43,901 nucleotides of DNA. Source: a virus. Numbering within the stretch: the first letter of the stretch is position 1; each line of letters opens with the position of its first letter. The notes beneath the pieces were generated by a model. It ran no database searches, was not told the origin of the DNA, and worked only from the letters and a program-made list of their open reading frames with translations. Where the stretch lies: positions 1 through 43,901 of IMG/VR virus record IMGVR_UViG_3300010413_000063; one strand, written 5' to 3'. The position numbers and the translations under genes are program-made. Of the stretch, positions 4,882 to 39,058 are shown piece after piece.

Positions 4882-4948
4882 ATTGTTCCTTTCACCGTAC
4901 CGGCCGCCCTGGGCCGCAACGTTCCGCCCAGGTCATTTTGCATGCACC

Positions 4949-6328: not shown

Positions 6329-6338
6329 GGTGTACCTT

Positions 6339-6563: not shown

Positions 6564-6567
6564 GCTA

Positions 6568-6762: not shown

Positions 6763-6772
6763 GGCTTGCCTT

Positions 6773-7027: not shown

Positions 7028-7038
7028 GCTTCACCCCT

Positions 7039-7284: not shown

Positions 7285-7495
7285 CTTTTCCGCCGCAATA
7301 CTGGCATTTCAAATCAACCGCCTGGCCCGGCAATGGCGGCGGTTGCTTTCCCAGGTGTTTGTTCAACAGGTTGTATGCAACCATTAGGTGCGCCTGGGCA
7401 TGCACCAGGTCTGAAATGGTCATGCCCAGGCTTTCAACCTGGTCGGCAATGGTCAGCGGGTCATTCCTTCGTTTCACCGGCTTCACCCGCGTCAC
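7271..7495 (-). CDS. small protein with C-terminal CxxC
   Basis: Protein of up to 74 residues. The start is uncertain: only GTG codons (7495, 7486, 7477) or a late ATG are available, and the AAGGA site near 7465 points to a start further in. Residues 25-50 form a helix (MTISDLVHAQAHLMVAYNLL). The end has a single CQYCGG pair, which may bind zinc as a dimer. Overlaps both neighbours. Confidence 0.58.
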   Translation of the reverse strand: MTRVKPVKRRNDPLTIADQVESLGMTISDLVHAQAHLMVAYNLLNKHLGKQPPPLPGQAVDLKCQYCGGKDDEH

Positions 7496-7799
7496 TGCCG
7501 TCCATGTTGCCTTTATCCTTGGCCTTCGGGTTGGTCACCTTGGCCTTGAACTCTTCGTCACCCGCTTCAATCCACAGTTCCAGGGCGCCGAATTTATACC
7601 GTTCCTTGTTGTGTTTGTGCATTGCAATCAGGCCGCGTTTTTTTAGTTCAGCTTCCTGTTTGTTAAGTTCAATGCGCTTGTCACGAATGGCGGCGTATTC
7701 ATACCCGATTTCCTCTAATTCGGGAATGCCGCCAGGAACGCCGGGCAGCCTGTTCTGCTTTCCGCGTTGGGTTTTCGGTTTATCCTTGTTTGTTGCCAT
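7461..7799 (-). CDS. helical hypothetical protein
   Basis: Protein of 112 residues from the ATG at 7799, which has GGAGGA upstream; longer forms run into the preceding gene. A basic N-terminus precedes a helical hairpin (about residues 30-65, 'YAAIRDKRIELNKQEAELKKRG') and a strand pair ending 'EEFKAKV'. This plan occurs in many small phage early proteins of unknown role. The tail is acidic. Confidence 0.68.
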   Translation of the reverse strand: MATNKDKPKTQRGKQNRLPGVPGGIPELEEIGYEYAAIRDKRIELNKQEAELKKRGLIAMHKHNKERYKFGALELWIEAGDEEFKAKVTNPKAKDKGNMDGSDAGEAGETKE

Positions 7800-8022
7800 A
7801 TGGGCTTTTTTCCTCCAAAGTTTTGAAAGCCTTGCGGGCTTCCTTTTCCAGTTGCGGAACGTACCGGCCAGCAACCGCGGCCTGCACTTCCAGTTTTAAA
7901 AAATACTCAATCACCGTCAGCGCGCGGGCCTGGCTGTCATAGTTCAGAAAACTGGTGACGCCTTCATGTATCCGCATGACTTCAACGCTGCCGTCAGGCT
8001 TTCCTTCAATCCGAATTGGCAT
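7780..8022 (-). CDS. small hypothetical protein
   Basis: Protein of 80 residues from the ATG at 8022 with GCGGGA upstream; a GTG at 8043 overlapping the previous stop is an alternative. The first half is strand-rich (MPIRIEGKPDGSVEVMRIHE) and the second half is a long helix. No recognised domain. Confidence 0.6.
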   Translation of the reverse strand: MPIRIEGKPDGSVEVMRIHEGVTSFLNYDSQARALTVIEYFLKLEVQAAVAGRYVPQLEKEARKAFKTLEEKSPYGNKQG

Positions 8023-8035
8023 ATATTTCCCGCTG

Positions 8036-8380
8036 TCATTCACCCGGTTTTTTCATGGCGGTATAATTTTCCTGGTCAAATTTCAGGAAACGCCTGATTG
8101 CATCAACAACGCCTTCCCGGTGTTCAAGGCTTGTGTGCGCATCCTCACAAAGTTCAAGGTATGTTTCCAGCGTTGCCTTTGCGGCCTGGTCACGGCCGCG
8201 CAGTATAAAAATCGGTTCATCGTCGGGAATAGGCTGCCCGGTGCGTTCGCTGACAATGCAGGCAGTCATTTCTTTGCCTTCCAATTCAGTCAGTGCAGTG
8301 TTTGGTTCCCATACCAGCCATTCACCCTGCGGTTTGATTGTACGATATTTCAAAACCAGCTTATATTTTCCGGCATTCAT
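8036..8380 (-). CDS. hypothetical protein
   Basis: Protein of 114 residues, coupled by ATGA to the MazG-like gene. The segment PDDEPIFILRGRDQAAKATL followed by a helix rich in Leu and His recurs in small phage proteins that I know only as hypothetical. No catalytic site is evident. Confidence 0.66.
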   Translation of the reverse strand: MNAGKYKLVLKYRTIKPQGEWLVWEPNTALTELEGKEMTACIVSERTGQPIPDDEPIFILRGRDQAAKATLETYLELCEDAHTSLEHREGVVDAIRRFLKFDQENYTAMKKPGE

Positions 8381-8679
8381 GGTTTCACCTTTCCTTTTTT
8401 CGGGCCGTGCATCACAGCAATTTTGCAGGCCAATGTTGCAACCTGTACAGCTTCGCCGTATATGTCCATGTTTTCAACGTTCACCTTGTCAAACTCTGAA
8501 TATATTTTATTTATCGCCTGGGCCAATTCACCAATTTCTTCTGTTAAATATCCCAGCCATTCATGCGGCGTTGCGGTTTCATGGCCCCACTTTTCCAACT
8601 GCCTTTTATGTTCCGCAATGATTGCCTTGAACACTTCAGGATTCAACCCGATATCAGTCAAATATATTGGAGTTTTCAT
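8377..8679 (-). CDS. MazG-like NTP pyrophosphohydrolase
   Basis: Protein of 100 residues from the ATG at 8679, which overlaps the RusA stop (ATGA) and has AGGAAA upstream. 'HKRQLEKWGHE', 'EWLGYLTEEIGELAQAINK' with the EExxE metal motif, and a later 'YGEAVQVATLACKI' helix (ExxxV) follow the all-alpha NTP-PPase (MazG-like) plan. Family members hydrolyse NTPs or dNTPs to monophosphates; phage versions are proposed to adjust nucleotide or alarmone pools. Substrate not deducible here. Confidence 0.72.
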   Translation of the reverse strand: MKTPIYLTDIGLNPEVFKAIIAEHKRQLEKWGHETATPHEWLGYLTEEIGELAQAINKIYSEFDKVNVENMDIYGEAVQVATLACKIAVMHGPKKGKVKP

Positions 8680-9362
8680 TTCATATTTTCCTGCATCCAC
8701 TTTTCATGGCAGCTGTCACAGCGTATGGTTCCAGGTTCACGCGGGCCGCCGCAGTCAGGGCAGGCCAGCTTTGTTTGTTGCGGCGTGCCGCCTGCATAGT
8801 CAGCGTCACCCGGCCGCACGCTGGCCAGGCTGGTCACGGTAATCACGGCGCCAATCAGATTGCTTTCAGGTTCCGCGTACAGCTTGCGGCCGTGCTGGTC
8901 AACAATTTGGCTGTCATCATACCAGGCAATGCCCTTTAATGCGTCCTCAGTGCTGCGGGTCAGTTTCGTCACGTCGGGTATTTTGTCAGGGTATGGCGGC
9001 GCGCTGGGCCGCAGCCCATGGGCGCCCAGGTGCCCCTTGGGCCTGGGCAGTATGAAAACAAATTCAACCGCCAGCGGCCCGCGCAGCGGCCCTGACTTCA
9101 TGACCATTTTGGCCATCCATTGAACGTCATGCCGCCAGGGTTTTGATTTCTTGTTATCCTCAGTAACAACCGCGCGCTGCCGCGTGCCCGTTGCTTCATT
9201 GCCTGGCACTATGAAAGCCTTTTTACTGCCGCCCGGTTGCGGAATGCCGGGCACAACAATCCTGAACGTTTGCAGGTTTGGCGCCGGTGCCAGCGGTTTC
9301 ATTGCCGCCTTGTCAGCTGCGGCCGCGTCCAGGGCTTCAATTAAATTATCCAAAATTTTCAA
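8676..9362 (-). CDS. rusA: RusA-like Holliday junction resolvase with zinc tail
   Basis: Protein of about 228 residues with a TTG start at 9362 behind AGGAAAGGGG; a TTG at 9398 and an ATG at 9299 are alternatives. From residue 33, FRIVVPGIPQPGGSKKAF, later IPDVTKLTRSTEDALKG (129-143) and YDDSQI (148-153) are the RusA endonuclease fold. RusA cuts four-way junctions and is common in recombination modules. The usual second Asp of the PDxD motif is Thr here (T132) and the following Lys is Arg (R136). A C-terminal zinc ribbon (C201, C204, C215, C218) is an addition to the core family. Confidence 0.82.
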   Translation of the reverse strand: MKILDNLIEALDAAAADKAAMKPLAPAPNLQTFRIVVPGIPQPGGSKKAFIVPGNEATGTRQRAVVTEDNKKSKPWRHDVQWMAKMVMKSGPLRGPLAVEFVFILPRPKGHLGAHGLRPSAPPYPDKIPDVTKLTRSTEDALKGIAWYDDSQIVDQHGRKLYAEPESNLIGAVITVTSLASVRPGDADYAGGTPQQTKLACPDCGGPREPGTIRCDSCHEKWMQENMK

Positions 9363-9825
9363 TGCCCCTTTCCTGCAGGCGCCTGGTGAAACAGTCAACA
9401 GGCGGCAATTTCTTCACAGGCTTCCAATGCAGCTTTTTGCACAGGTCGGCCATGGCCATCAACCAGTGTTCATGCACGCCGATGATACCCATGGGCTTTT
9501 CAGCAATTGCGTTGGCGTACCAAAGGCCGTCTATTAGGTGCAAATGCCCGTGGTGAATCATCATATAAACGGCGGCCTTGTACCAATCGGCGCCGGTGCG
9601 GTTCAAATAGTGCTGCAGGTTTTTCAGCGGTACACCCAGGGCAGCAGCTTCAACCAGCATCGTGAAGAAATCAGGCGTCGTTGCACTATATTCAGCTTTC
9701 CATGCCATTATATTTTGGGCATTGCGCATAATGCTTTCAGTCATGAAATCATCACAACCAACTGCAACCAAGCTGCGGTCAGCCTTCACGAAAAACAGCA
9801 TCAACTTTCCAACAAAATCAGGCAC
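9346..9825 (-). CDS. hypothetical protein
   Basis: Protein of 159 residues with a GTG start at 9825 behind GGGGGTGA; an ATG eight codons in is possible. A start with short strands (LMLFFVKADRSLVAVG) is followed by a mostly helical body rich in His, Met and Trp (HHGHLHLIDGLWY). No recognised family. Its end overlaps the resolvase gene, so it belongs to the recombination cluster by position. Confidence 0.64.
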   Translation of the reverse strand: MPDFVGKLMLFFVKADRSLVAVGCDDFMTESIMRNAQNIMAWKAEYSATTPDFFTMLVEAAALGVPLKNLQHYLNRTGADWYKAAVYMMIHHGHLHLIDGLWYANAIAEKPMGIIGVHEHWLMAMADLCKKLHWKPVKKLPPVDCFTRRLQERGIENFG

Positions 9826-9847
9826 TGTTCACCCCCAATGTTTTGGG

Positions 9848-9881
9848 CCAGCCTGCCCCGTCAGCAGGCCCAGCAGGCTGG
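9848..9881 (-). promoter_or_regulatory. inverted repeat in 138-base gap
   Basis: CCAGCCTGC/GCAGGCTGG, nine perfect pairs with a 16-base loop, between the annealing-protein candidate and the next gene. No T-run follows on the minus strand, so a processing or stability structure is as likely as a terminator. I see no promoter in the rest of the gap. Confidence 0.4.
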
Positions 9882-9963
9882 CTGTTCCCCTGCCCTGCCC
9901 CAGCTGCGTTGCGGTTCCATGGAAACGCGGGCACGCCTTGCGGGCTGGCTTTGGGTACATTCC

Positions 9964-10968
9964 TTATTTCACCGGCGCCTTTCCCGCCTTAATGGCTTCC
10001 AGCACTTTATCAAAATCGGCCATGGGTATGTGTTCAATTTCTTCATATCCCATGTCATGGACAATCTGCGTAATGTGCCCAGCAACCAGGGCGCCGCGCC
10101 CGCCCACGATAGGATTAAGGCCAACGGCCCATAGTTTTGAAACCTGGCCCTGGGTAATGCTGCCGGGCGGCGGTTCACTTTTCTGCTGGCGCTGACGTTT
10201 TCCGGTGCCCTGGTTGCCGTTGAAATTCTGCTGCGTTGCTTTGCCCTGCTGCGGCTGTTTCTGTTGCGGCCTGGGCGCGTCCTGTTCCTGCATTTCATCC
10301 CCGTCAAACCCGGTGAAATCGTCACCCAACTCTTCAGCGGGCACCGGGTTGTATCCGGCCAGCACAACAACCCAGCGCAAATAGTTGTTGTGAACCTTTG
10401 AAATGGCCCTGGTCTGCGCCATTGATTTCAACTGAAACAACGGCACCTTTTCTTCACCCGCCAGCGCGCGCACCATTTCAGGCATGTTTTTGCCGGGCTT
10501 GTAAGGGTTGGGCACCCAATTGATTGCCTGGCTTCCTGGGTTTTCCTTGCAGGTGCTGCCATCCTTGCACCGATAGTGCTTTTCATATTTGGGACGTGTT
10601 GACCATTTTTCTTCATCATTCAGGCACATTGCTTCAGCCCGTGAAACCTCCCGGCCGGTGCGCACGTCAACCAAAACGGCAACGGCATTGAAACCCTGTA
10701 TTGGGCCGTATTCAACAAATTCAGTTGAAACGATTTTCCCAGCAACACCATAAAAATGGCCCAGGGTTTGCCAGGCTTCACACTTCAGGTGTTCACTGGC
10801 ACCCATTTGAACAACCGCACTGGTGCCGTCAATGACCAGCTTCAATTCATCGGCTGCCATTTTAGCTTCAGCCAGTACCTGCCTGGGCGGCCTGGTAATA
10901 ACCAGGTCAGCAGGCAGTTTGTTTTCATATTCAACCAGGCCCGTTGACGGGCCGTTTTTCTGTTCCAT
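9964..10968 (-). CDS. putative recombination/ssDNA-annealing protein
   Basis: Protein of 334 residues. The core (about residues 25-215) ends in 'LKSMAQTRAISKVHNNYLRW', the 'QTRA.SKA' helix that I associate with phage recombination proteins of the RecT/Erf/Rad52-like group. A CRCK-like Cys pair (CKDGSTC) lies near residue 134. A Gln/Pro-rich linker (about 235-270) leads to a C-terminal helical domain. The linker-plus-tail layout is also seen in annealing proteins that bind partners. Directly downstream of a PD-(D/E)XK nuclease and a coiled-coil protein, it fits the annealing half of an exonuclease/annealase pair. Family assignment is tentative. Confidence 0.6.
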   Translation of the reverse strand: MEQKNGPSTGLVEYENKLPADLVITRPPRQVLAEAKMAADELKLVIDGTSAVVQMGASEHLKCEAWQTLGHFYGVAGKIVSTEFVEYGPIQGFNAVAVLVDVRTGREVSRAEAMCLNDEEKWSTRPKYEKHYRCKDGSTCKENPGSQAINWVPNPYKPGKNMPEMVRALAGEEKVPLFQLKSMAQTRAISKVHNNYLRWVVVLAGYNPVPAEELGDDFTGFDGDEMQEQDAPRPQQKQPQQGKATQQNFNGNQGTGKRQRQQKSEPPPGSITQGQVSKLWAVGLNPIVGGRGALVAGHITQIVHDMGYEEIEHIPMADFDKVLEAIKAGKAPVK

Positions 10969-20246: not shown

Positions 20247-23200
20247 TCAGCTTTCCTCGTATGCGGCACTCAGGGCCAGGTACCCGCTGTTGACTTTGCT
20301 AAGGCTGCCCGCCGACGTTCCAATGTAAAGGTTCCAACCTATTGCGCCTTCAGGCACCAGCTGGCTGGTGTCATAATACCTTTTTCTGAAAATGAAACCC
20401 AGCTTGTCAACAAATTCACCTGATCTGCCTGACGTGCCCGCAACTTCATATGCGTACCCGGCACCGGCCGCTGGCACCGTGATTGTATAGTCAACCCCGT
20501 CACCGTCACCGTATGAATAGGTTGCCTTGTTGGTCACAATGTCCAGGCGGTCAAGTACATAAGGAATGAAACCGTAAAACTTTTTAATGCCGATTTGAAA
20601 ACTTGTAATGTATTCATCGGCCGCCAGGGTCAGTTCATCCATGCTGCCGCCGCTGCCGCCGTGCTTTGTCCCGTATTCGGTCGATTCGTCATCCTTTTCC
20701 CAGCAAACTTGTATTGCGTCGATATAGTCACCGTGCCAAACTTTAAAACCTTTCACGCGGGTATATTCCAGGCTGGCGCCTTCAATGTCGGTGAACGCGT
20801 CACCGCCGCTGCCGCCGTACTGCGTTGAATAGGTCAGCGCGTGCAGGTATTCTTTCCAAAATCCGCGCAGGTAGCTGTCATAAGGAATATAAATCGGGCC
20901 GAATGCGTCACCGTTTGCGAGGCTTTCGTCATCGGCCGTCAGCTGAAACGTTGCCTTGGCATACAACCTGCGGGCTGCGTTTCCTGAACCGGTGCCGTAC
21001 CAGTACAATGACGGCGCAGTTGGCACGGTAAATGCGCTGACTTCATCCATTGGCCAATAGGCCCAGGGCGTTGCAATCACCAGGCCCGTTTCAGCTTCAT
21101 CAGTTCCGGCCAGGGTTGTGCGTCTAAATATCAAAGTCACCCAAACTTTGGTGACGGTTGTTGCCCCCGCCTGCACATAAAGGCTGATAATGTCACCGGC
21201 ATCAGCTGCACGCGTCCAACCTGAAAGGCTGCTGTCCTGGTATTTCTGCGCACTGTCCAGTTCAGGCGGATTTGCGCCCGTGATTGAATCACCGCTGTCA
21301 GGCGGCCAATCTGCAAAACTGCATTTGCGCAGGTCGATTTCAAAACCGCCGCTGGCGTCGGCAACCATAGTCACGCTTTCCAAATAGCAATCTTCAGGCA
21401 CAGGAAATGCGCCATGATACCCGGCGCCAGGCTGGCTGCCATTGCCGTCAATCAGTATCGGCCCAACAATAATTTTGGTATCTTCCTGGGTTTTGACAGT
21501 TTCCGCAGGATCACTGGTTGTGTCATCGTCGGTTGTGCAGAACGTGTTTGTGAAAAATGCCCTGGCTTCCAGGTCGGTGATTGTCAGCCCTGACGGTATT
21601 ATAAACGGGTTGCTGTAAAACGTTTCAGTGTTCAAGTCACCAAACGTCGGATTGTCCCAATATACTTGTGACTGATACCCGGCCGTGTCCTGAAACCCGT
21701 CATCATTTGCGGCCGGGCTTGTTGCGTTCCAAATCCATGGCGGCCGCACAATCTTCACGCGCAGCTGGGTGTATTCGTCATTCACGTCCAATGCAAAGTT
21801 TGTATTGAACGGTTGAATGCCTGTTATTTTTTCACCGTCAAACTGTTCAGCTGATACCCGCTGCCAAATGGTGCGGTTTACATCAAACTGCCCCTGGCGC
21901 ACGTCGATGATTAAAAGGCCGCCGTTGGTTGCACCGCTGCCGTAATTGCCTGACGCCTTCCGCAGTTCACCCGTTGCCGGGTTGTATGTATGGTCAATTG
22001 CACTGCCGTCATAAAGTGTGTCGGCCGCGCCCGCGTCGGCGTCGATATCACGCCAGAAACCGGTGACAGGTGAACCGGCGCCCGCGCTGGTGTCCCTGAT
22101 CTGAAAATCAACCTGCCAAATGCGGTTGCTGTTCACGGCCGGGCGTGACGCAACAACAACGGCCGTGCCTGCCTGCACGCCTGGTTTTATCTTTACTGAC
22201 CAATCGGAAGGCGGCCCAACATCATACAGGGCGTCACCGGCCGTGTTGACATGGTGCGTGACGTATTGCGGCGTGTCATTGCCGTCAGTCCAGTTTGACC
22301 AGCCATCTGCATTTTTGAAACGCATTGACCAGTACCATTCCCCGGTATATGCACCATATTCAAATTCATATCTGAAACCCTGCCAGTCAGCAAAAAGCCC
22401 TTCAACAATAAACTGGTCAGTGCCGTTGTGTTCAAATGTTCCGCCTTCACCCGGCGTGCGCATGTCGATGGAAACAACCGGCGCCGTTGATTGAATGCGC
22501 TGCAGTCTTATTTCTGCTTCAGTAATTCCGGCATTCCATTTTTTAGCCTGGGCCATTATCAACAGCGTACTTTCCAGGGCCAGCGCCCTGGTTGTCAGCT
22601 GGTCAGGAACGTTGACGGGCACCACGTCCTGTTCAGGTATTTCATTCGGCGTTGTTTCTTCACCGTCAGGCGCCAGGGCCGTCACAGGCGCGGCCGTACA
22701 CCATAACGTCATGACGTGTTTTCTGCCTTCATCAATGACGTGCCGCACCGCGTCAACAATAAATTCAGCGTCGATGTTCAGGCCGAAATCAGCCAGGCTG
22801 GCAACAACCCGTATGCGGTCACCTTCCCGGCGTTCCTTCACTTCCGCCAGGTGCGTTGCGTCATAGTTTCCTTCAACATCAAATTGAATGCGGTTTTTAG
22901 GGTCTTTAAATTCAGAAACCAAATAATCAAGTTTTGCCTGGCAGTCAACCTGGTTGGTTTCCCAATCCAAACTGAAAGGCCAGGTTTTGCGGCCATACTT
23001 TTCAATGCTGCTGCCGGTGCCGCTGTCATCACTTTCCAAGCCAATCGGGTCACCTTCAACCTGGGCCTTTCCCCAGGCTGCCAGCTTCACCAGGTAAACG
23101 TCATATGTGACATTTGCATTGGTGAACACTATCTGCTGGCGGTTGCCGTAAGAAGTTTTAACTGCAGAAACATCGTCAGTCAGGTCAGTGCCGCTGCCGT

Positions 23201-24149
23201 CAGCTGCAGTGTTGGCTTCATAATCGACAATGCCCCACTCATTCACGCCAATGTACTGGTTCGGGCTTCCTGCTGTCGGGTAATCAATATTGATTGTTTT
23301 GCTGCTGTCGGCCGGTATCAGAATCGGCGTGCCGCCTTTGCCGTTTGCAACGTCGGTGACGGTTGCCAACAACACGCTTTCTTCAGATTTGTTGAACGTG
23401 CGCACGTCGGCCTGGGCATGGTTATAAATCCCGGCGCGGCTGCTCAATCTTTTCAGGCGCCAAATATTCAGCGTGCCGGTGCCATAGGTTGACTGCACGG
23501 TATTGCTGCGGGTTTGGGTGTACAGGTGTGCCCTGTCAAAAAATATCAGCTGGCCCTGCGGGTTTTCTCCCAGGTGCCCGATTTCCGCAGCTTCCAGGCT
23601 GCGCAGCGCCTGCATGATTTTGCTGCCCGGTTTCAGCCAGAATTTTGATAACGTGCTTTGGCCGCCGTCAAGGTCATAGTCATCCGATGAAATCCCGGCC
23701 GCCGCCAGCACGGCCGCAATTGCGTCACCGGTTTGAATGTTTTCCTGCAGGGCCAGGTTGGCGGTGTCATTGGTGTACCTGGCAAGAATACCGTATGCCG
23801 TCAGCTGGGCTGTGTTTATATTTTTGTGCTTTGACGAATCGGGCACAATGTCATTCAGGTACCCGCTGAACAAATACCCGGTGCCGCTGTACGTCATTTT
23901 AAATTGAATGCGCCGGTTGGGCAGCACCAGGCCCGTCAGCGGGCTGCTGGTGTTTTCCGGTGAATACTTGCCCGCGCTGTTGTCCAGCATTACGTTCAGC
24001 TGCCCGGCCGCCGCAACGCCGGGCCTGCCGCCCTGGGCGCCCCTGCTGAAATCACTTTTCAGAACGTCAGCTGAAACGTCACTGTACGCATGGTCAAATC
24101 CGCCGTCATTGTTCCAGTCAATCAAATAAACATAATCTGCTTTTATCAT
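20247..24149 (-). CDS. giant tail-tip / baseplate hub protein
   Basis: Protein of 1,300 residues, coupled by ATGA to the tape measure gene. The N-terminus (about 1-470: 'VYLIDWNNDGGFDHAYSDVS', 'LNVMLDNSAGKYSPENTSSP', 'KHVMTLWCTAAP') is the phage tail-tip family that stands in for separate distal-tail and hub proteins. The remainder (470-1,300) is a string of beta domains, including 'DGWSNWTDGNDTPQYV'-type carbohydrate- or FN3-like modules. No peptidase or lysozyme motif is evident. It probably closes the tail tube and carries the receptor-binding protein encoded next. Confidence 0.8.
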   Translation of the reverse strand: MIKADYVYLIDWNNDGGFDHAYSDVSADVLKSDFSRGAQGGRPGVAAAGQLNVMLDNSAGKYSPENTSSPLTGLVLPNRRIQFKMTYSGTGYLFSGYLNDIVPDSSKHKNINTAQLTAYGILARYTNDTANLALQENIQTGDAIAAVLAAAGISSDDYDLDGGQSTLSKFWLKPGSKIMQALRSLEAAEIGHLGENPQGQLIFFDRAHLYTQTRSNTVQSTYGTGTLNIWRLKRLSSRAGIYNHAQADVRTFNKSEESVLLATVTDVANGKGGTPILIPADSSKTINIDYPTAGSPNQYIGVNEWGIVDYEANTAADGSGTDLTDDVSAVKTSYGNRQQIVFTNANVTYDVYLVKLAAWGKAQVEGDPIGLESDDSGTGSSIEKYGRKTWPFSLDWETNQVDCQAKLDYLVSEFKDPKNRIQFDVEGNYDATHLAEVKERREGDRIRVVASLADFGLNIDAEFIVDAVRHVIDEGRKHVMTLWCTAAPVTALAPDGEETTPNEIPEQDVVPVNVPDQLTTRALALESTLLIMAQAKKWNAGITEAEIRLQRIQSTAPVVSIDMRTPGEGGTFEHNGTDQFIVEGLFADWQGFRYEFEYGAYTGEWYWSMRFKNADGWSNWTDGNDTPQYVTHHVNTAGDALYDVGPPSDWSVKIKPGVQAGTAVVVASRPAVNSNRIWQVDFQIRDTSAGAGSPVTGFWRDIDADAGAADTLYDGSAIDHTYNPATGELRKASGNYGSGATNGGLLIIDVRQGQFDVNRTIWQRVSAEQFDGEKITGIQPFNTNFALDVNDEYTQLRVKIVRPPWIWNATSPAANDDGFQDTAGYQSQVYWDNPTFGDLNTETFYSNPFIIPSGLTITDLEARAFFTNTFCTTDDDTTSDPAETVKTQEDTKIIVGPILIDGNGSQPGAGYHGAFPVPEDCYLESVTMVADASGGFEIDLRKCSFADWPPDSGDSITGANPPELDSAQKYQDSSLSGWTRAADAGDIISLYVQAGATTVTKVWVTLIFRRTTLAGTDEAETGLVIATPWAYWPMDEVSAFTVPTAPSLYWYGTGSGNAARRLYAKATFQLTADDESLANGDAFGPIYIPYDSYLRGFWKEYLHALTYSTQYGGSGGDAFTDIEGASLEYTRVKGFKVWHGDYIDAIQVCWEKDDESTEYGTKHGGSGGSMDELTLAADEYITSFQIGIKKFYGFIPYVLDRLDIVTNKATYSYGDGDGVDYTITVPAAGAGYAYEVAGTSGRSGEFVDKLGFIFRKRYYDTSQLVPEGAIGWNLYIGTSAGSLSKVNSGYLALSAAYEES

Positions 24150-30532: not shown

Positions 30533-30883
30533 TTAAAATTTCTTCCCTATAATATCTTGGCAATGCAGTAACAGCCAGCGTTTGTTTTCCATTTCTTCAG
30601 GCGGCGCCGTGAATGTCAGCTGGCGGTTGTTTTTCGTCAGCCAAATCACCTGCATGAATGGCGTGACGCCTTTTATATATCTTATCCAAACGTTGTAATC
30701 CTGTGCAAATTCCTGGGCTTCCTGGCTGGCTTCCAGCTGATTGCCGCCCAGCGGTTCAAACTTGGCTGGCAGGTTTGTCCTGAATACCGCGTCAACCGTT
30801 CCAATACCATTAACTGAAACCGGCGTTTTTATCGTCACCAGTTTGACGCGTTCCCGCAGTTCACTGATTTTGGGCGGTATCAT
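30533..30883 (-). CDS. head closure (head-tail joining) protein
   Basis: Protein of 116 residues, coupled by ATGA to the connector gene. 'ISELRERVKLVTIKTPVSVN', 'AVFRTNLPAKFEPLGGNQL' and 'YIKGVTPFMQVIWLTKNNRQ' match the SPP1 gp16-like/HK97 joining fold. It would sit under the connector and close the head after packaging. Ordinary size for the family. Confidence 0.83.
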   Translation of the reverse strand: MIPPKISELRERVKLVTIKTPVSVNGIGTVDAVFRTNLPAKFEPLGGNQLEASQEAQEFAQDYNVWIRYIKGVTPFMQVIWLTKNNRQLTFTAPPEEMENKRWLLLHCQDIIGKKF

Positions 30884-31818
30884 AAATAAATAATCCTCTC
30901 AGGGTCAAGCAAATCACGTATTGATTCCAGGGCTTCAGGCGTTGTGTTGTTGTCACCCCGGTTGTTGAAAAGGTCTGTGATTTTCCGCAGGATCGCATCA
31001 ATATAAAATTCAGGCACGCTGCTGGCTGCGGCGCCGTACCCGGCCGTGAACCTGATCTGCACAGCCTTGATATCAGGGTATGTGTTCGGCCAGCTTTCCC
31101 CGTGCGTCAGCTGCAGGCGGCCAGGTTCAGCCATAGTATCAACAACATAGTACGAGCTTGCCAGCAGCGTCAGCGTGTTGTTGGTGTCTTTATAATACAC
31201 CTGGTCAACCGTCACCAGCGGCGGCCTGGGCAGTTCAATCACCCTGCCCTTCGGGAAACAGTCAAGGTGCAAATCCCAAACTTGAGAAATCAGCGCAACC
31301 CGGCTGTAATTTTCAACCCACTTGCGGGCCGTTTTAATGTACCTGGTAATGCTGGCATCTTCATCATTGACGGGCGAGTGCATGACAATGTTCACGCCGA
31401 AAACGCACGCGGCGCCCACAACGGTTGCAACAACCCGCACATACTGCCGGTTGCCTTCATATGCAACTTTGAAATTGGCGTTGTCATTGGCTTCAGTCAC
31501 CTGGGTAAAATCACCGTCTGTCACGTCATCCCAATCACTTCCATCTTCACTGTCCTGCAGCTTTGCGTCAACAGTGCCGCCGCTGCCGCAGGTGCCCGCC
31601 GATAATTCCGCAACAACTTCACCGGCCGCCGATACGTCAACGGCCGCGCCTTCCAGGGAATAGGCCGCAGCAATTGCATGGCTGTCAGGCCCGATTGTTT
31701 GGGTTGTTGTCAAATTGCTTTCCAGCGTTCCGGCATCAAGTTCCAAGTGCAGTTTCGCCTGCTGCAGTGTTACCGGTTCAACAGCTGGTGCAGTATAAAT
31801 TTTCCAGTTTCCCTGCAT
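30880..31818 (-). CDS. gp6-like head-tail connector with inserted beta domain
   Basis: Protein of 312 residues from the ATG at 31818 with GGAGGGG upstream. Residues 16-28 (VTLQQAKLHLEL) and 151-312 ('DEDASITRYIKTARKWVENY', 'RVIELPRPPLVTVDQVYYKD', 'AVQIRFTAGYG') are the two parts of an HK97 gp6/YqbG connector, normally about 200 residues or fewer. Between them, about 31-149, is an extra strand-rich domain ('VDAKLQDSEDGSDWDDVTDG', 'VAYEGNRQYVRVVATVV') like small decoration domains of phage heads. A ring of twelve would display twelve such domains at the neck. Confidence 0.82.
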   Translation of the reverse strand: MQGNWKIYTAPAVEPVTLQQAKLHLELDAGTLESNLTTTQTIGPDSHAIAAAYSLEGAAVDVSAAGEVVAELSAGTCGSGGTVDAKLQDSEDGSDWDDVTDGDFTQVTEANDNANFKVAYEGNRQYVRVVATVVGAACVFGVNIVMHSPVNDEDASITRYIKTARKWVENYSRVALISQVWDLHLDCFPKGRVIELPRPPLVTVDQVYYKDTNNTLTLLASSYYVVDTMAEPGRLQLTHGESWPNTYPDIKAVQIRFTAGYGAAASSVPEFYIDAILRKITDLFNNRGDNNTTPEALESIRDLLDPERIIYL

Positions 31819-31822
31819 GGCT

Positions 31823-32665
31823 TCACCCCTCCAATATTTTGCGCACGGCGCTGATTGCTTCCAGCGGTTCAATGTCCTGGCATTTCCAGTCATGGCAATC
31901 GTACCAGGTCATTGTTGACTGGCAAGGCCCACAGGGCAGCCTGCGGCAAAGTATGACGTTATTATGGCCCAGCGGGCAACCTTTCACCGTGCTGGTTGCG
32001 GTATAAATCCAAACGCATGGAATGCCCAGGCTGGCAGCCAGGTGCGTGATACCAGAATCGGTGCCCAGCACGCAACGGCATTGCGCCAGGGCGTCAGGCA
32101 ATTCTGCCAGGCTGGCCCGCACCCAGCTGCCCGGTATTTCCGCGCAGCCGTCCTGTTCCAATCCGAAAACGGCAACGCGGTACCCAATGCGGCCCAGGGT
32201 TTCAGCAACCTGGCGCATATGCTTCCAGCGTTTCCGCAGCCATTCACCGCCTTTGCAGCCCGGTACTATTCCAACATCATACCTGCTGCCGTAAGAAATA
32301 CCGCTGCACCAGTCATCAGTGTCAGGAATAGGCCCGACGTGCCCCAGCTGCAGCGCAATCCTGAAATTGCTGGCAAATTCACTGATTGTGTACGGGTAAT
32401 GGGTTTGAAACCTGGTAATGTTCTGCAGTTGGTTCCAGCTTGCCGGGCGCCATTGGCCGCAAACCAGCCTGCTGCCCGGTACCGGCGCCGGGCCTTCAAC
32501 AACGCTGTCAGCATATCTGCACCGCCGCCACAAGTCAGTCATTTTGAAATCAGGTTCAAGGTACAGCTGCACCGGAAAACCCAATTCTTTCACGCCTTTT
32601 ATTGCTGGCAGCATCAGGATTGTGTTGCCCAGGCCGCTGGCCAGGCCGATTGTGATATATTTCAT
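31823..32665 (-). CDS. GT9-like glycosyltransferase (heptosyltransferase type)
   Basis: Protein of 280 residues, coupled by ATGA to the gene before. The start 'ITIGLASGLGNTILMLPAIK' and the C-terminal 'GTDSGITHLAASLGIPCVWI' with later 'LPCGPCQ' and 'CHDWKC' Cys are the GT-B, GT9 (ADP-heptose or related donor) plan. Many GT9 proteins with the Cys-rich end act on other glycans than LPS. It is the last gene of the modification cassette, next to the connector gene. Confidence 0.83.
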   Translation of the reverse strand: MKYITIGLASGLGNTILMLPAIKGVKELGFPVQLYLEPDFKMTDLWRRCRYADSVVEGPAPVPGSRLVCGQWRPASWNQLQNITRFQTHYPYTISEFASNFRIALQLGHVGPIPDTDDWCSGISYGSRYDVGIVPGCKGGEWLRKRWKHMRQVAETLGRIGYRVAVFGLEQDGCAEIPGSWVRASLAELPDALAQCRCVLGTDSGITHLAASLGIPCVWIYTATSTVKGCPLGHNNVILCRRLPCGPCQSTMTWYDCHDWKCQDIEPLEAISAVRKILEG

Positions 32666-33555
32666 TTTTTCACCGCTGGCCTTTTCTGCTGTGCAGCTTC
32701 AATGGCTTCCTTCCATTTCCGCTGGCAATCCGCAAAACCATAATGGTCATAAAAAGATTTCATCCGGCGCCCGGCGCGCAGCTTTTCACGCACGGCCCTG
32801 GCAACGCCTTCAGGGTCATCCATTGCGGTCTGCCATGGAATGACGTGCGAGTCTACAAATTCAAGATAATTGCCGGTGTTGGTTGTCACAATGGGCAGTT
32901 CAGCTGCTTCAGCGTCGGCAACCGCCCAGCTGCCGCCCTCGCTGGCTGACAAGCAAAGGAACAATGACGCGCGGCCGTACTGTTCCCGGCGCCCGGCGTC
33001 ATCCTTGAAATGCAGCGGTTCAAACTTCATATCAGGGCATCGGTTTGCAACCGCCCGCCATATCCTGGCGCCTTTGTTATCGTCACGCCAGTCACCAATG
33101 ACAATGGGCCGCCCGTCAGCAGTTCCCGGCCTGGTGCCCCTGGGTATGTGTTCAACCCAATGCGGAATGATAACGGGCTGATATTCCTGGCCCAGCTTGT
33201 AAATATCCCTGAACGTGTCAGCAACCCAGCGGCTGGGTGCCACATAAAACCGGTTGGGCTGATGAAACATGAACTGCTGCATTTCGCACATATGGGTTGT
33301 TCCGGCATGGCGCCAGGTCGGCACCCGGCCGTAATGCGCCGACGCGCAGCCCCTATGCACTACTATCACCGGCACGTTTTCCGGCACTTTGGTTGCCAGG
33401 TGATTGTCAACAATAACCAGGTCACCCGGTGAAACCTTTGGCGGCGCTGTCACGCTGCGCAGGCCGGGCACCAACCGGCGCAGCATGAAGTCACCCCGGC
33501 ATGCACCTGACCAGCCACCCTGTTCAACTGTTTTTGCAACCAGGCTGTATATCAT
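32662..33555 (-). CDS. GT4-like glycosyltransferase
   Basis: Protein of 297 residues from the ATG at 33555, an ATGA overlap. The GT-B layout is visible: an N-terminal part with 'VIVVHRGCASAHYG', 'FYVAPSRWVADTF' in the middle, and 'LFLCLSASEGGSWAVADAEA' (about 198-217) near the donor site. The usual E-x7-E pair reads E206 ... D214. Nucleotide-sugar donor unknown. It is between a methyltransferase and the GT9-like gene and probably adds one sugar of a short chain. Confidence 0.75.
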   Translation of the reverse strand: MIYSLVAKTVEQGGWSGACRGDFMLRRLVPGLRSVTAPPKVSPGDLVIVDNHLATKVPENVPVIVVHRGCASAHYGRVPTWRHAGTTHMCEMQQFMFHQPNRFYVAPSRWVADTFRDIYKLGQEYQPVIIPHWVEHIPRGTRPGTADGRPIVIGDWRDDNKGARIWRAVANRCPDMKFEPLHFKDDAGRREQYGRASLFLCLSASEGGSWAVADAEAAELPIVTTNTGNYLEFVDSHVIPWQTAMDDPEGVARAVREKLRAGRRMKSFYDHYGFADCQRKWKEAIEAAQQKRPAVKK

Positions 33556-34157
33556 CTTTTCACCCACAGTTCACAACGGCGCGCTTTGCATTCCTTCAGC
33601 ATGCCAGGCCAGCGGGCCAGGCTGATTTCGTCACGCTGGCTGCATTCCCATGGTTCAGGCAGCGTCAGCCCGGCAACAGTAATGCCTGGGTGTTCAGGTG
33701 TTGCCTTGAATCGCAGGTCATAACAAACAAACAGCGTATTGGCAAAACCCGCAATGGCTTCAAACACCTGCTGCGGCTGCGGGTCATGGTCAATGACGTT
33801 GCATGCAATTGCCAGGTCAAACCAGGCCCGCGCGTGTTCATGTTCCCTGGCAAAATCCTGGGCCGTTTGGTGATAAACGGAATTGAAGCCCAGGGCCGCA
33901 TAATCAATGCCCAGGGAAATCATGTCATCAGCCAGCGGTTCAACCGCAACGCGTTCAGCTGCCCGCTGAAACCAGGGCGCCAGGCCGCACGGGCCGCAGC
34001 CAAATTCAATGATATTGTCACGCCGCAGCAGGTTCAGGCCCCAGGCTGTCACAAAAGGCAAATACAGCTGCTGGTGCGCAAAATCCAATGACTGCATCAT
34101 TTTTTCGGCGCCGCCGTTTTCCAGGCGCGGCCGCCAGAAAAACATTTTATCCGCCAT
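33552..34157 (-). CDS. class I SAM-dependent methyltransferase
   Basis: Protein of 201 residues from the ATG at 34157. Motif I is IIEFGCGPCGLAPWF (about 49-63); acidic motif II is VAVEPLADDM; 'FDLAIACNVIDHDPQPQQVF' is motif IV. No DNA-methylase (N/D)PP(Y/F) motif is present, and its neighbours are glycosyltransferases, so a small-molecule or sugar O-methyltransferase is more likely. It starts within the end of the previous gene. Confidence 0.78.
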   Translation of the reverse strand: MADKMFFWRPRLENGGAEKMMQSLDFAHQQLYLPFVTAWGLNLLRRDNIIEFGCGPCGLAPWFQRAAERVAVEPLADDMISLGIDYAALGFNSVYHQTAQDFAREHEHARAWFDLAIACNVIDHDPQPQQVFEAIAGFANTLFVCYDLRFKATPEHPGITVAGLTLPEPWECSQRDEISLARWPGMLKECKARRCELWVKR

Positions 34158-34590
34158 TTTCCCGGCCGCCTTCCTGGGCCGCCGCCTGGGCCGCCTGCAC
34201 TTCCTTGAATTTGTCAATGATTTCCTGGGCGCCTTTGGCCGCCTGGGTATCCTCAAATTCAGGATTATGCCAGAACGTACCGTCAGCAAATTCAACGGAT
34301 TTCACCGGCACAACCTTGCCCGTCAGCGGGTTGGTGTAAAAATAACTTGGTATTGCCTGGTGAATGGCGGCCTGGTTGGTCAGGAAAACAATGTTTGCTT
34401 TCACAACGTCACCCAGCAAATACTGCACGGTAATGTCACGCACATAATTCAGTTTAACGTCACCCGGCGCCGGTTCATATTCGATGTTCGGGCCGACAAC
34501 AATGACGCTGCCGCCTTCCTGCTGAAATACCCGGCAACCGGTTGCGGCAACCGGCCCCTTTTCGCGGTCAAGCAATTTATTCCCCGTCAT
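34147..34590 (-). CDS. unknown protein within modification cassette
   Basis: Protein of 147 residues with GGAGGAAAG before the ATG. The first 105 residues are strand-rich ('GGSVIVVGPNIEYEPAPGDV', 'IPSYFYTNPLTGKVVPVKSV'); the end is an Ala/Gln/Glu helix (AQEIIDKFKEVQAAQAAAQE). It has no transferase motif and reads more like a structural protein. It could be the substrate or scaffold of the transferases, or an unrelated virion protein. I recognise no family. Confidence 0.66.
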   Translation of the reverse strand: MTGNKLLDREKGPVAATGCRVFQQEGGSVIVVGPNIEYEPAPGDVKLNYVRDITVQYLLGDVVKANIVFLTNQAAIHQAIPSYFYTNPLTGKVVPVKSVEFADGTFWHNPEFEDTQAAKGAQEIIDKFKEVQAAQAAAQEGGRENGG

Positions 34591-35179
34591 CGGCTGCTTT
34601 CCTCCCGCAAATCAGAACATGCCGCTGGCCTGACAGTTCCAGTTCAGCAACAATTGCCGTGTCATACCCGTCACCCAGGGCGTCAGCGTATTCAGCTGCG
34701 GGCCTGTCGGCCATATGGTCAGCCTTGGTGTTGAATACATTTTCAAACATCAGAATGACGCCGCCCGGCCGCAGGGCTTTGTCAAACTGTTTCATTGCCT
34801 GGTGAAATATGTGTTCATCGGTAATATGCTGCAGCACCTGGCAGGTGAAAATCAGGTCAATGTATCCTTTCCTGTCGGGAATGCGGTGCCCGTGTACCAG
34901 TTCAACGCCTGGCAGTTCCTGGGCCTGCATGGCTTCGATACAGGCAATTGCCATGTCAACGCACATTATTTGCGCGTCAGGGAAAAGCCCGCGCAGGCGC
35001 CTGGTCATGCGGCCGTACCCGCAACCATATTCAAGGATTGCCTGCGGGTCAATCCCTTCACACTGCGCCTTCACCAGCGGGAAAATTTCATCTGCCTGTG
35101 CTTCCGTTCCGGCTTCCTGCGGGCCTTTGGCCATGCGCTGCCGCCAAAAATTAATATATTCTTTTTTCTTCAGTTTCAT
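34577..35179 (-). CDS. class I SAM-dependent methyltransferase
   Basis: Protein of 200 residues, coupled by ATGA to the gene before. Motif I is ILEYGCGYGRMTRRL (48-62), then 'AQIMCVDMAIACIEAM' (acidic end of strand 2) and 'DLIFTCQVLQHITDEHIFHQ' followed by 'ALRPGGVILMFENVF'. This is the UbiE/COQ5-like small-molecule plan rather than a DNA methylase. With the second methyltransferase it suggests that two positions of a glycan are methylated. Confidence 0.8.
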   Translation of the reverse strand: MKLKKKEYINFWRQRMAKGPQEAGTEAQADEIFPLVKAQCEGIDPQAILEYGCGYGRMTRRLRGLFPDAQIMCVDMAIACIEAMQAQELPGVELVHGHRIPDRKGYIDLIFTCQVLQHITDEHIFHQAMKQFDKALRPGGVILMFENVFNTKADHMADRPAAEYADALGDGYDTAIVAELELSGQRHVLICGRKAADDGE

Positions 35180-35895
35180 GCAATTCCCCTTTCAATTGTT
35201 TTTTCACCCAGCAGCGGCGGTTCTGCGCCTTTGGGTGCTGTGTTGAACCAACAGCTGTGCTGCGGTTGCCATAAAAATGAACGCACCAGGTGCGGAACGC
35301 ATAATATTCCTTTGCCTGTTTTCTGAATGCTGTGCGGTGAATCGCGAACAATCCACCAATCAACGTTGCTGCCCATGCCCTTGACGCCGGGCGCCGTGCA
35401 TTTTGGCGTTCCCAGGCAGTTGGTTGGTATCGGCATGATTTTGCGCAGAAAATCAACATGCGCGTGCATATGGGTTGCTCTGCAGAATTGCTTTATCTTT
35501 ATCTGATACCCGTACATTTCAGTTGCTTTGATTGCTGGGTGTTCAGGCGCGTCATGGCCTGTCAATAATGGCGAATAATCATGAAACCGTTTCAATATTT
35601 CTATTGTATCGGCATGCACGTCAACGTCATCCTGAAAGTATGAAATCCAATTAACCTTAGCATCAGCCAGCCAATAATTCAGGCCGATATTCAAGGCGGC
35701 CGCCAGACCCCTATTTTTGGGCAGGCGCAAATATTTCATGCTGTATTGGTTTGCAATTTCTTCATTTTGAAAACACGCCGGTATTGCGCTGCCGTCATCG
35801 ACAACCAGCATTTCAATGCCCAGGCGCGCAACCTGCGGCGCTGTTCTGCTGAACGCATCCGGCCGGTTAAAGGTTGTAATGATTCCCGATATCAT
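35176..35895 (-). CDS. GT2-like glycosyltransferase
   Basis: Protein of 239 residues, ATGA-coupled on both sides. 'GIITTFNRPDAF' at the start, 'MLVVDDGS' (29-36) and 'ISYFQDDVDV' (84-93), with its acidic metal site, are a GT-A, family-2 fold. Such enzymes use NDP-sugars to extend a chain. Length is just the catalytic domain. No membrane segment, so it acts in the cytoplasm, where phage heads are assembled. Confidence 0.82.
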   Translation of the reverse strand: MISGIITTFNRPDAFSRTAPQVARLGIEMLVVDDGSAIPACFQNEEIANQYSMKYLRLPKNRGLAAALNIGLNYWLADAKVNWISYFQDDVDVHADTIEILKRFHDYSPLLTGHDAPEHPAIKATEMYGYQIKIKQFCRATHMHAHVDFLRKIMPIPTNCLGTPKCTAPGVKGMGSNVDWWIVRDSPHSIQKTGKGILCVPHLVRSFLWQPQHSCWFNTAPKGAEPPLLGEKTIERGIA

Positions 35896-36923
35896 CCCTG
35901 CACCCTTATAATTTCATTGTCCCAAAATAATTGCGGCACCAGTTCACGTTCAACTGTTTCCGCAAACCCTTCCTTTGGGCTGGTATGGTGCTGGTCATGA
36001 ATGCGCGCAACCATTTTTGTTGCGTCATGACTATATGCAACGCGTTCCAACCCGATCTGTTTTAAAAATTCATTGTCAGTGAATTGCTGCTCATCCTTGA
36101 ACCTAATCTGCTGCCACAGGGTTTTTGTGTACATGAATGACGTGCCGACAATGTACCCAGGCTGCCCGCCGCTGTATCTTTTAACCTGGCCCGTCAGGGT
36201 ATCCCAAAATAAAATGGTTGAATACCCGGTAATATGCAGGCCGCTGGCCTGTATCCGTTTCACCTGGTCAAATATGCGGTCAGGTTCACTGTAATCGTCA
36301 TCGTCAAAATGACAAATCAATGGGCCTTTGGCCATTTCACAGCACAGGTTTCTTTTCTTTCCTGTTGTCACTTTTTCGTCAAGTTTCAAATACCTGATAC
36401 GCTTATCATCAGGCAGCAGGTCACTGATTTCTTCCTGGCCATCGTCTAAAATAATCAATTCCCGGTTTTCATAGGTTTGTTTATTCCAGCAATCCAGGGC
36501 AGCCCTGATAAACCTGCGGCGGTTCCAGGTCGGCATTATGCAGCTGACCATGGGCATGCCTTCACCCAGGTCACTGTTCGTTTCCGGCGCCTTTTCGTTC
36601 ACCGGTTCAGGGCTTGCGTTCACTTCCGGCGCCTTTTTGTTCAAACCTTCCTTGTTGCGGTATTCATTAAAAAGGCTGTGCAGGTCAACGTTTGTGCTGA
36701 CTTCCCTGGTTTCAGTTTCATCACAGCACGCTTTGCCCTGGGCTTCAACCCGCGCCAGCATTTCATCAAGGTCACCATGGTTTTTAATCCTGGCAACGCC
36801 TTTACGGCGCAGGTGTTCTGCTGACTGTTCGGGCAGCAGGTGAACGGTTCCGGCCTTATAGGTCGGCCCGTTCACCGCCTGCACGGTATAGGTTTTGACA
36901 ATTTCAACCCATACTTGCTTCAT
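35892..36923 (-). CDS. GT2 glycosyltransferase fused to head-type N-terminal domain
   Basis: Protein of 343 residues. Residues 1-46 (YTVQAVNGPTYKAGTVHLLP, then 'SAEHLRRKGVARI') match a small beta module that phages usually encode alone next to the capsid gene. A charged Pro/Glu linker follows (47-123), then a GT-A domain (125-343) with 'VSCIMPTWNRRRFIRAALDC', 'ELIILDDGQ' and 'LICHFDDDDYSEPDRI' (metal-binding acidic run at 207-210). The fusion could hold the enzyme on the assembling head. First gene of the cassette, five bases after the decoration gene. Confidence 0.8.
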   Translation of the reverse strand: MKQVWVEIVKTYTVQAVNGPTYKAGTVHLLPEQSAEHLRRKGVARIKNHGDLDEMLARVEAQGKACCDETETREVSTNVDLHSLFNEYRNKEGLNKKAPEVNASPEPVNEKAPETNSDLGEGMPMVSCIMPTWNRRRFIRAALDCWNKQTYENRELIILDDGQEEISDLLPDDKRIRYLKLDEKVTTGKKRNLCCEMAKGPLICHFDDDDYSEPDRIFDQVKRIQASGLHITGYSTILFWDTLTGQVKRYSGGQPGYIVGTSFMYTKTLWQQIRFKDEQQFTDNEFLKQIGLERVAYSHDATKMVARIHDQHHTSPKEGFAETVERELVPQLFWDNEIIRVQG

Positions 36924-36928
36924 GGGCC

Positions 36929-37381
36929 TTAATCCTTGTCGCGTTCAATTTCAGCAACGCTGGAAAGGTCACTGTCACTCGACGGGCCATACTTGGCCTT
37001 GCCCAATATGACAGCGGCAACAGGGCCGCCCGTTGAACCGGAAACAACGCCAAATTTGACATACCGGTTGGCATTGGCGCCGCCTTCGGCTAAATCTTCC
37101 GGCCGTACTTCAATGACAACCTGTTTGTTGTCACTGGCATTTGCGGCGGCGGCCAACGTGTCAGCGGTTTTGAATGCCGCTGCATTGTTTCCGTCAACGT
37201 CACAGGTGACGCACCGGAAAACCAGGCTGCCCGTGCTGGCGTTCATGTCACCCGTCAGTGCAATGCCCATGATTTCATCAAACTTGGACATGTCGATTAC
37301 ATCACTGAACACTTCCGAATTGGCCAGTGTTTGCGGGTCAATGGTGCCAATGATTGCTGCTCTTTCGCTGAATGCATCCAT
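36929..37381 (-). CDS. probable head decoration protein
   Basis: Protein of 150 residues with repeated AGGAAGG before the ATG. 'VIDMSKFDEIMGIALTGDMN', 'ASDNKQVVIEVRPEDLAEGG' and 'VKFGVVSGSTGGPVAAVILG' resemble a small family located directly after HK97-type capsid genes. I infer capsid binding, to stabilise or decorate the head. It is followed at once by the glycosyltransferase cassette, so it is a possible glycan acceptor. A GC hairpin lies just before its ribosome site. Confidence 0.7.
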   Translation of the reverse strand: MDAFSERAAIIGTIDPQTLANSEVFSDVIDMSKFDEIMGIALTGDMNASTGSLVFRCVTCDVDGNNAAAFKTADTLAAAANASDNKQVVIEVRPEDLAEGGANANRYVKFGVVSGSTGGPVAAVILGKAKYGPSSDSDLSSVAEIERDKD

Positions 37382-37462: not shown

Positions 37463-39058
37463 TTAGGCCCGTTCATCCAATGTGACTGCCCATGACAGCG
37501 TGTTGCTGCCGTCGCGCGGGTCAATCGCTGCGGCCCACCAGGGTTGCCCGGTGACGCGGAAAATGAACCGGTACGCCAGCACGTCATAATCAAACCACAG
37601 GTGCATTGAAACATCGGTTTTAATTCCGCCCGCCTTGAACAGTGTCATGTACTGCGTCAGGTCGGTCAGGATAATGTCACCCTTGTCACCAACGGTTTCA
37701 CATGCCTGCGTCGGTATCACTGGCCTGCCCATAAGTGTTGCATAGGGGCTGGCTGACAATCCGTTTGCGGGCAGGTAAACCGGCACGCCGCCAACAACTG
37801 CGCCGCTGGCATTCAGAATATTGAACGACATTTTGAACAGCTGCGGTTCAATGTCCTGGTTAATCAGCCATACGGCATTGCGTCGGCAAGGCCCGTACAG
37901 GCGCGCCCACATATTGATTATATTGTTGGCAACAATGGTGTCAGATGACTGGCCGCTTTCCTTCGCAACTGAAACCAGGCTGGCCGCGTTCAAAATACCC
38001 AGCGGTTCACCGGCGCCGGTGCCCTGCACAATTTTCAGGGTCAGTTTGAAGTCAAACTTTTCACCAACCTTTTTGCGCAGGTACGAATCCAAACCGCTGG
38101 CATCTTCCAGCAGTTCATCAGTGACGGGCACCAGGGCTGTCAGTTTGTTCAGCCTGACAGTCATGTCCTTCAACGCAATTTTGGATTGCGTGAATTGGCT
38201 GGCTTCACTTTCAAAGTATGCCTGCACGCCGTTGGTTGTATCCCATGCCGTGCTTTCATCCTTTGGCAGCACCATGCTGTTTTTGCCGGTTGTGTTCTGG
38301 TCGGTACGGGCAAAAAGCGAATCCTCCGCATTCACCTTTTCCCATATGCTGGTGCGGAAATCAGGCGGCACCAGAAACCCGCCGTCAGCGCCAACGCCTT
38401 CCTGGCTGTACGTTGTCGGCGCGTTCATGACCAGGCGCGGGTCAAGTTCGGCACCCTTGGCAGCACCGGCGCGCACGGCCTGGGCAAATTCACCCATGTT
38501 TTTCCAGCCCCATTTTCCCTTATCAGTGAAAACAACGCCGACGCGGCCGCCCCTGGCGGTTGCCTGGCCCGGCCTGATAACGCGGCTGGCAGGCAGCTGA
38601 CGGTTGCCGTTGTCAACCCCTGCGTCATGGTCTGTGTCGGTTGCCTGGGCCTGGGACTGGCGCCCGGCCGTTTGCCGCAGCTGGGCCGTTTGGTTGGCAA
38701 TCAGTTCCCGGCGTTCAATTTCCTGGTTGACTTCATCAAACCTTGCAAAAATGCGGTCAAGGTCGGTCTGTTCATCCTCCGTCAGCGCGCGGTTGTTTTC
38801 GGCGTCGGCGGTGTTTTGAATCACCTGGGCCTGTTCATTCAGTTCCAGCAGTTCCTGCCGCAGTTCGGCAATCCGTTCAGTTGAACCTGCAGCCCCGTCA
38901 GCGAAAATGAATGAAATGCGGCGCTGCGTACCGCATGCCATTTCAATGTAATCCCGGCCGCACCTGTGAAAAATGCGCAGCGGGCGCGTGTTTATTTTCC
39001 GCACCAGGGCCTGCCAGGCGATAACAAACAAACTGAAAAACCAATTAATCAGTTTCAT
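37463..39058 (-). CDS. HK97-type major capsid protein
   Basis: Protein of 531 residues with GGGAG before the ATG. Residues 60-130 are a charged coiled coil (ERIAELRQELLELNEQAQVI), the delta/scaffold region. The capsid fold follows from about 190 ('PTTYSQEGVGADGGFLVPPD', 'SQFTQSKIALKDMTVRLNKL', 'WLINQDIEPQLFKM'). Cleavage by the protease encoded upstream would remove the scaffold. Residues 1-58 are unusual: a hydrophobic run (INWFFSLFVIAWQALV) and a basic, Cys-containing segment before the coiled coil. Confidence 0.92.
   Translation of the reverse strand: MKLINWFFSLFVIAWQALVRKINTRPLRIFHRCGRDYIEMACGTQRRISFIFADGAAGSTERIAELRQELLELNEQAQVIQNTADAENNRALTEDEQTDLDRIFARFDEVNQEIERRELIANQTAQLRQTAGRQSQAQATDTDHDAGVDNGNRQLPASRVIRPGQATARGGRVGVVFTDKGKWGWKNMGEFAQAVRAGAAKGAELDPRLVMNAPTTYSQEGVGADGGFLVPPDFRTSIWEKVNAEDSLFARTDQNTTGKNSMVLPKDESTAWDTTNGVQAYFESEASQFTQSKIALKDMTVRLNKLTALVPVTDELLEDASGLDSYLRKKVGEKFDFKLTLKIVQGTGAGEPLGILNAASLVSVAKESGQSSDTIVANNIINMWARLYGPCRRNAVWLINQDIEPQLFKMSFNILNASGAVVGGVPVYLPANGLSASPYATLMGRPVIPTQACETVGDKGDIILTDLTQYMTLFKAGGIKTDVSMHLWFDYDVLAYRFIFRVTGQPWWAAAIDPRDGSNTLSWAVTLDERA

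Follow-up and report, generated by a model that had tools for sequence, protein, structure and literature searches.

We asked why a virus should carry a run of mainly glycosyltransferase and methyltransferase genes in the middle of its head-neck region. The sequence studied was one entire IMG/VR virus record of 43,901 bases, referred to here as the window. Its structural genes lie on the minus strand in the order TerS, TerL, portal, protease, HK97 capsid protein and decoration-like protein, followed by the seven genes in question and then by the connector, head closure, major tail protein, tail chaperone, tail completion, tape measure and tail proteins and the lysis cassette. We propose, with a probability of roughly three in four, that the seven genes are a virion-glycosylation cassette expressed together with the late genes.

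Organization of the cassette

The cassette fills the interval from the decoration gene to the connector gene and consists, on the minus strand, of GT2a, GT2b, MTa, a 147-aa protein, MTb, GT4 and GT9 (Table 1). An earlier note on this DNA had listed these families in this order and interval, and all seven reading frames were found, with Pfam matches for every one but the 147-aa gene, those of MTb and GT4 being weak. Starts were refined from the sequence for MTb (ATG at 34157) and GT4 (ATG at 33555, in an ATGA overlap, instead of GTG at 33567). With these starts, neighbouring cassette genes all overlap, by 4-14 bases, and 5 and 4 bases separate the cassette from its upstream and downstream neighbours. 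None of the cassette proteins contains a membrane segment (no 19-residue stretch above KD 1.6). The note was therefore correct on both the overlaps and the absence of membrane segments. The locus combines two features of the functional class, namely four clustered, overlapping glycosyltransferase genes and a location among structural genes.

Table 1. Cassette genes and flanking genes in the window
Feature	Position	Strand	Match
Major capsid protein (HK97 fold), upstream flank	37463..39058	-	PF05065 2.8e-43
Putative decoration protein, upstream flank, candidate acceptor	36929..37381	-	phrog_28483 1.5e-13
GT2a, family-2 glycosyltransferase (residues ~120-340) with N-terminal small head-region domain (residues ~1-48)	35892..36923	-	PF00535 7.6e-19
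GT2b, family-2 glycosyltransferase	35176..35895	-	PF00535 8.9e-12
MTa, class-I SAM methyltransferase	34577..35179	-	PF13649 4.1e-12
147-aa protein, no credible Pfam family	34147..34590	-	ORF
MTb, divergent class-I methyltransferase-like protein (ATG start)	33552..34157	-	PF13489 5.4e-4, under cut-off
GT4-like glycosyltransferase (ATG start in ATGA overlap)	32662..33555	-	PF00534 5.2e-6, PF13692 5.9e-6, about cut-off
GT9-like glycosyltransferase	31823..32665	-	PF01075 1.4e-15
Head-tail connector, downstream flank	30880..31818	-	PF05135; phrog_442 4e-23; phrog_5707 5e-17
Head closure Hc1, downstream flank	30533..30883	-	phrog_25 2.4e-8

The individual assignments differ in strength. GT2b has relatives in six contigs (47-58% identical), and MTa has relatives in contigs L012, L133, L136 and L142. 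The GT4 assignment, weak alone, gains support because conserved relatives exist in L012, L050, L133, L134 and L136 (about 50% identical). MTb has a glycine-rich FGCGPCG motif and no relatives among the capsid-related loci, and on its own Pfam match it is a putative methyltransferase by a weak assignment. The 147-aa protein has no relatives in Pfam, phrog or the capsid-related loci, and its structure model was unusable (pLDDT 41.8). We also looked for a serine/threonine-rich tail or acceptor motif tied to the cassette and found none.

The decoration-protein gene is kept after the capsid gene in relatives. The window connector has a decoration-like domain (about residues 29-128) inserted within its Connect_1 fold; the L136 connector (9126-10187) shares this insertion and that of L012 lacks it. 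A Jacalin-like lectin domain (20391-20822, E 2.5e-24) lies near the C-terminus of a 1300-aa tail protein of the window (20247-24149).

A four-glycosyltransferase core recurs in other viral contigs

The earlier note had proposed searching for the same cassette order in other phage genomes. We collected relatives with GT4, GT9 and GT2b alignment scans and obtained six contigs, including L012 (Table 2). The six share with the window the order GT2a-GT2b-[variable tailoring genes]-GT4-GT9, GT2a being unseen in L142, at glycosyltransferase protein identities of about 37-58%. Since the order recurs in other phages, a chance origin is excluded. No relatives came from single-query GT9 scans or from tblastn searches of 50,697 phage records with GT4 and GT2b.

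Table 2. Gene order in the related cassettes
Contig	Gene order
L012	[N-domain+GT2a], connector, GT2b, MT, GT4, GT9, Hc1
L050/L129	portal, collagen-like protein, GT2a, fibre-like genes, GT2b, Methyltransf_24, PglD-type acetyltransferase, DegT aminotransferase, DUF6625, DUF2334, GT4, GT9, Hc1
L133	long set resembling L050/L129, with extra genes ahead of Hc1
L134	portal, collagen-like protein, GT2a, GT2b, GT4, GT9, connector, Hc1 (only the four GTs, no methyltransferase)
L136	capsid, decoration, GT2a, GT2b, MT, other genes, GT4, GT9, connector, Hc1
L142 (96-kb contig)	GT2b, MT, sulfotransferase-like gene (by inspection), other genes, GT4, GT9

The position of the core is conserved as well. In L012, L050/L129, L133, L134 and L136 it sits between capsid or portal genes and Hc1, so that six of the seven cassette contigs, the window included, have it in the head-neck region; in the exception, L142, the cassette is closely followed by a probable terminase gene of the same strand. 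The homologues are thus not always found in host-surface loci, a placement that the note had named as telling against a virion role. The tailoring genes inside the core are swapped from contig to contig. The capsid protein of L050 differs from that of the window and is protease-fused, indicating that cassette and head are separable. Even so, glycosyltransferase identities remain at 39-58% when L142 is set aside.

The note had further suggested that the virion is decorated with a methylated glycan. Decoration of the virion remains the likeliest role, in keeping with the position in a late structural operon. In the window, the glycan is likely to be methylated; methylation is not an inherent property of this type of cassette, because the L134 cassette has no methyltransferase.

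In L129 (7206-8327), L133 (839-1852) and L134 (334-2154), the portal gene is closely followed by a gene for a collagen-like (Gly-X-Y) protein, which in L134 immediately precedes GT2a. These proteins may serve as glycan acceptors in the phages that encode them.

We also considered whether the cassette strictly travels with the tail module, a view favoured at first, as most matches to the neck and tail genes came from phages with the cassette. An independent major-tail-protein scan ruled this out. The closest major-tail-protein relatives (L147-L158, 73-78% identity) have a compact head-neck region without a cassette where the upstream region is present, indicating that tail genes and cassette recombine independently and that the cassette is not essential to the tail type of the window.

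A small head-region domain is fused to the first transferase

The first 48 residues of GT2a match a small protein that about 30 relatives encode as a stand-alone reading frame right behind the decoration gene. Fusion of this domain to the transferase was found only in the window and L012. The GT2a proteins of L050, L133, L134 and L136 are without it, that of L050 beginning at the glycosyltransferase domain, and docking through the domain is therefore not essential. Longer matches in L083, L007, L058, L060, L014 and L061 raised the possibility that fusion to glycan enzymes is frequent; these proved to be mis-started or non-enzymatic reading frames, and no enzyme fusions were among them.

To identify related folds, we modelled the stand-alone protein (confidence above 90 over 44 residues, essentially the N-terminal part) and compared it by Foldseek. 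The nearest folds were ribosomal L9-N domains (E 0.1); YqbF and the C-terminal domain of lambda gpFI (2lsm, E 0.55, probability 0.97) ranked lower, and no fold match was significant. Binding of gpFI to the capsid lattice of the prohead has been described (PMC4856287). As the likeness to gpFI and L9-N is not significant, docking of GT2a on the capsid via the fused domain is offered as a hypothesis only. The fused transferase provides a direct test of coupling between glycosylation and capsid assembly.

Possible modification of the host surface

The main rival to virion glycosylation is modification of the host surface, either LPS core or capsule, by late enzymes that would prevent superinfection or keep progeny from re-adsorbing to debris. 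GT9 matches heptosyltransferase II of LPS synthesis (PDB 1psw, 8.9e-7), the fold that such a role calls for, and the WbqC-like, DegT and PglD-type tailoring genes of the relatives are typical of surface-glycan loci. LPS-core enzymes (the GT9 enzymes WaaC/WaaF, the GT4 enzyme WaaG, and also GT2 enzymes) are soluble and require no flippase or Wzx/Wzy, so that soluble GT9, GT4 and GT2 enzymes can build an LPS core unaided by one. For this reason, the earlier note's argument against LPS alteration from missing membrane segments, flippase and polymerase is not conclusive.

Several other results argue against this rival. The cassette genes are joined by translational overlaps inside a head-neck operon, their placement is kept in all but one of the cassette contigs, and a head-region protein is fused to one of the transferases. 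The membrane pair of the GtrA/GtrB type is absent; no family of O-antigen conversion (GtrA/GtrB/Gtr) appeared among the cassette or other scanned window proteins, and only GT2b gave a weak phrog_841 match. In 398 genomes of Pseudomonadota, a sample from one phylum, neither the GT4 nor the GT2b profile had a match at E<=1e-12, whereas the GT2b profile did match four viral contigs. The GT9 residue at the presumed position of the WaaC catalytic aspartate, in the N-terminal GD motif, is Asn in six of the seven cassettes and Asp in L136, which may point the same way. We consider host-surface modification unlikely.

The head-neck junction is a variable site for glycan genes

To determine what occupies this interval in related phages, we examined capsid relatives, comprising 35 loci from viral contigs and the nearest 33 of 78 loci from bacterial genomes. 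The distance from capsid gene to connector ranged from almost nothing to 5 kb and exceeded 9 kb in one contig. Relatives that lack the cassette often have glycan genes of other kinds in this interval; Bradyrhizobium, Caulobacter and Streptomyces phages whose capsids are related have none annotated there. Up to 16 of 50 proteins from expanded junctions matched glycan-, methyl- or sulfo-transfer families, compared with none of 50 same-locus controls: MptE-like (6), Methyltransf_23 (3), sulfotransferase (2), FkbM (2), GT8 (2) and pyruvyl transferase (1). Nine of the gap proteins were checked individually. Fisher's test gave p of about 4e-6 if all sixteen are distinct and about 1e-4 with twelve, values that overstate independence, as the loci are related and the MptE-like matches are short and under the Pfam cut-off.

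In the independent major-tail-protein sample, L163, L167/L168/L170 and L173 carry cassettes or GT2/MT-like genes at the junction (gene types by inspection, save GT2a in L163), and L147, L149, L151, L154 and L157 have nothing of the kind there. If virion glycosylation does occur in these phages, the head-neck junction would appear to be a place where surface glycans are repeatedly exchanged.

Two further gene sets were observed in this region. A protein family that recurs between the decoration and connector genes of L002, L005, L006 and L011 (about 205-227 aa, 42-45% identity between loci) carries a short MptE/Maf-like motif and is possibly an uncharacterised glycosyltransferase. In L038, L040, L042 and L044, a GT2 and a GT2a-like glycosyltransferase lie between connector and tail genes (about 4231-8732), accompanied by a B12-binding radical SAM protein; these gene types were assigned in L038, and the other three have similar reading frames.

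The width and widely variable content of the interval, with fibre-like or unknown genes in some relatives, could also be explained if the decoration-connector junction were a generic cargo site taking moron genes, its glycan genes being functionally unlinked to the virion. This is very unlikely in view of the enrichment of transfer enzymes over same-locus controls and of the four-transferase order kept between phages with different heads. DNA hypermodification, in which the transferases would glycosylate modified phage-DNA bases against restriction, draws on known DNA-modifying phage glycosyltransferases and on the capacity of several such enzymes to build a chain, and we regard it as highly improbable because no base-modifying enzyme (TET/JBP, hydroxymethylase or thymidylate-synthase family) was found in the 29 other window proteins scanned, in a contig that may be incomplete, and the genes lie in the late head-neck operon away from DNA metabolism genes, with tailoring genes in the relatives that belong to sugar-nucleotide pathways.

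A model for virion glycosylation

Under virion glycosylation, the cassette enzymes would be soluble proteins made late, alongside the capsid and neck proteins. GT2a, GT2b, GT4 and GT9, the conserved core, would use host nucleotide sugars to build a short oligosaccharide, perhaps three or four residues long, and one or two methyltransferases may cap or diversify the sugars. The acceptor would be a virion protein of high abundance, the likeliest candidate being the decoration or capsid protein encoded beside the first transferase, and the chain would be attached before or during assembly. In the window phage and one relative, the small head-protein domain of the first transferase may dock on the capsid lattice.

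A more specific version is possible, if rather doubtful: a mobile four-glycosyltransferase core with interchangeable tailoring enzymes may plug in at the head-neck junction of phages with different capsids and, together with gpFI-like docking in two phages, this would place glycosylation on the prohead lattice during assembly.

Comparison with known systems

In the literature found, virion glycosylation by phage-encoded enzymes is reported for mycobacteriophages. One such report describes glycosylated proteins in Corndog, Che8 and Myrna, glycosylation of the Corndog capsid, and gp38 as an essential glycosyltransferase (PMC12363180). The Cluster O (Corndog-type) cassette comprises the O-methyltransferase gp35 and the glycosyltransferases gp36-gp38 between portal and protease (PMC4351075), and Wildflower has the order portal-OMT-GT-GT-GT-protease-capsid. 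The arrangement in the window thus has a precedent inside a head module, as both cassettes combine a methyltransferase with several glycosyltransferases in overlapping genes. However, the window cassette lies between decoration and connector genes rather than between portal and protease, and no GT4, GT9 or fusion to a head-region protein was found in the Corndog type. Comparison of Wildflower gp33-36 with the GT2a, GT2b, MTa, GT4 and GT9 profiles gave nothing below E 0.04.

Che8 also has a small overlapping glycosyltransferase cluster (gp108-gp110, gp108 being by inspection a GT2 fused to a methyltransferase) and glycosylated virion proteins, but its cluster is at the right genome end, outside the head module. 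The match of Che8 gp108/109 to the GT2a/GT2b profiles was marginal (E about 2e-5 and 11-12 bits, from a search of three sequences). In the flagellin type B locus of Clostridioides difficile, glycosyltransferase genes, one with a methyltransferase domain, lie directly downstream of the modified structural protein and are co-transcribed (PMC5207246). Compared by description, this locus likewise places glycosyltransferase and methyltransferase genes beside an abundant structural protein, but it serves a bacterial organelle rather than a virion and no GT4/GT9 core is described for it.

The capsid relatives of phages such as that of the window lie in Gram-negative hosts, for example Nitrosospira, Desulfobulbus and Aquincola. 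The cassette suggests that virion glycosylation also occurs in environmental phages, through enzymes unrelated to those of mycobacteriophages. Since the Corndog and Che8 enzymes have no useful sequence similarity to it, the cassette does not belong to the mycobacteriophage type by homology and, judged from sequence, is best read as functionally like a virion-glycosylation cassette.
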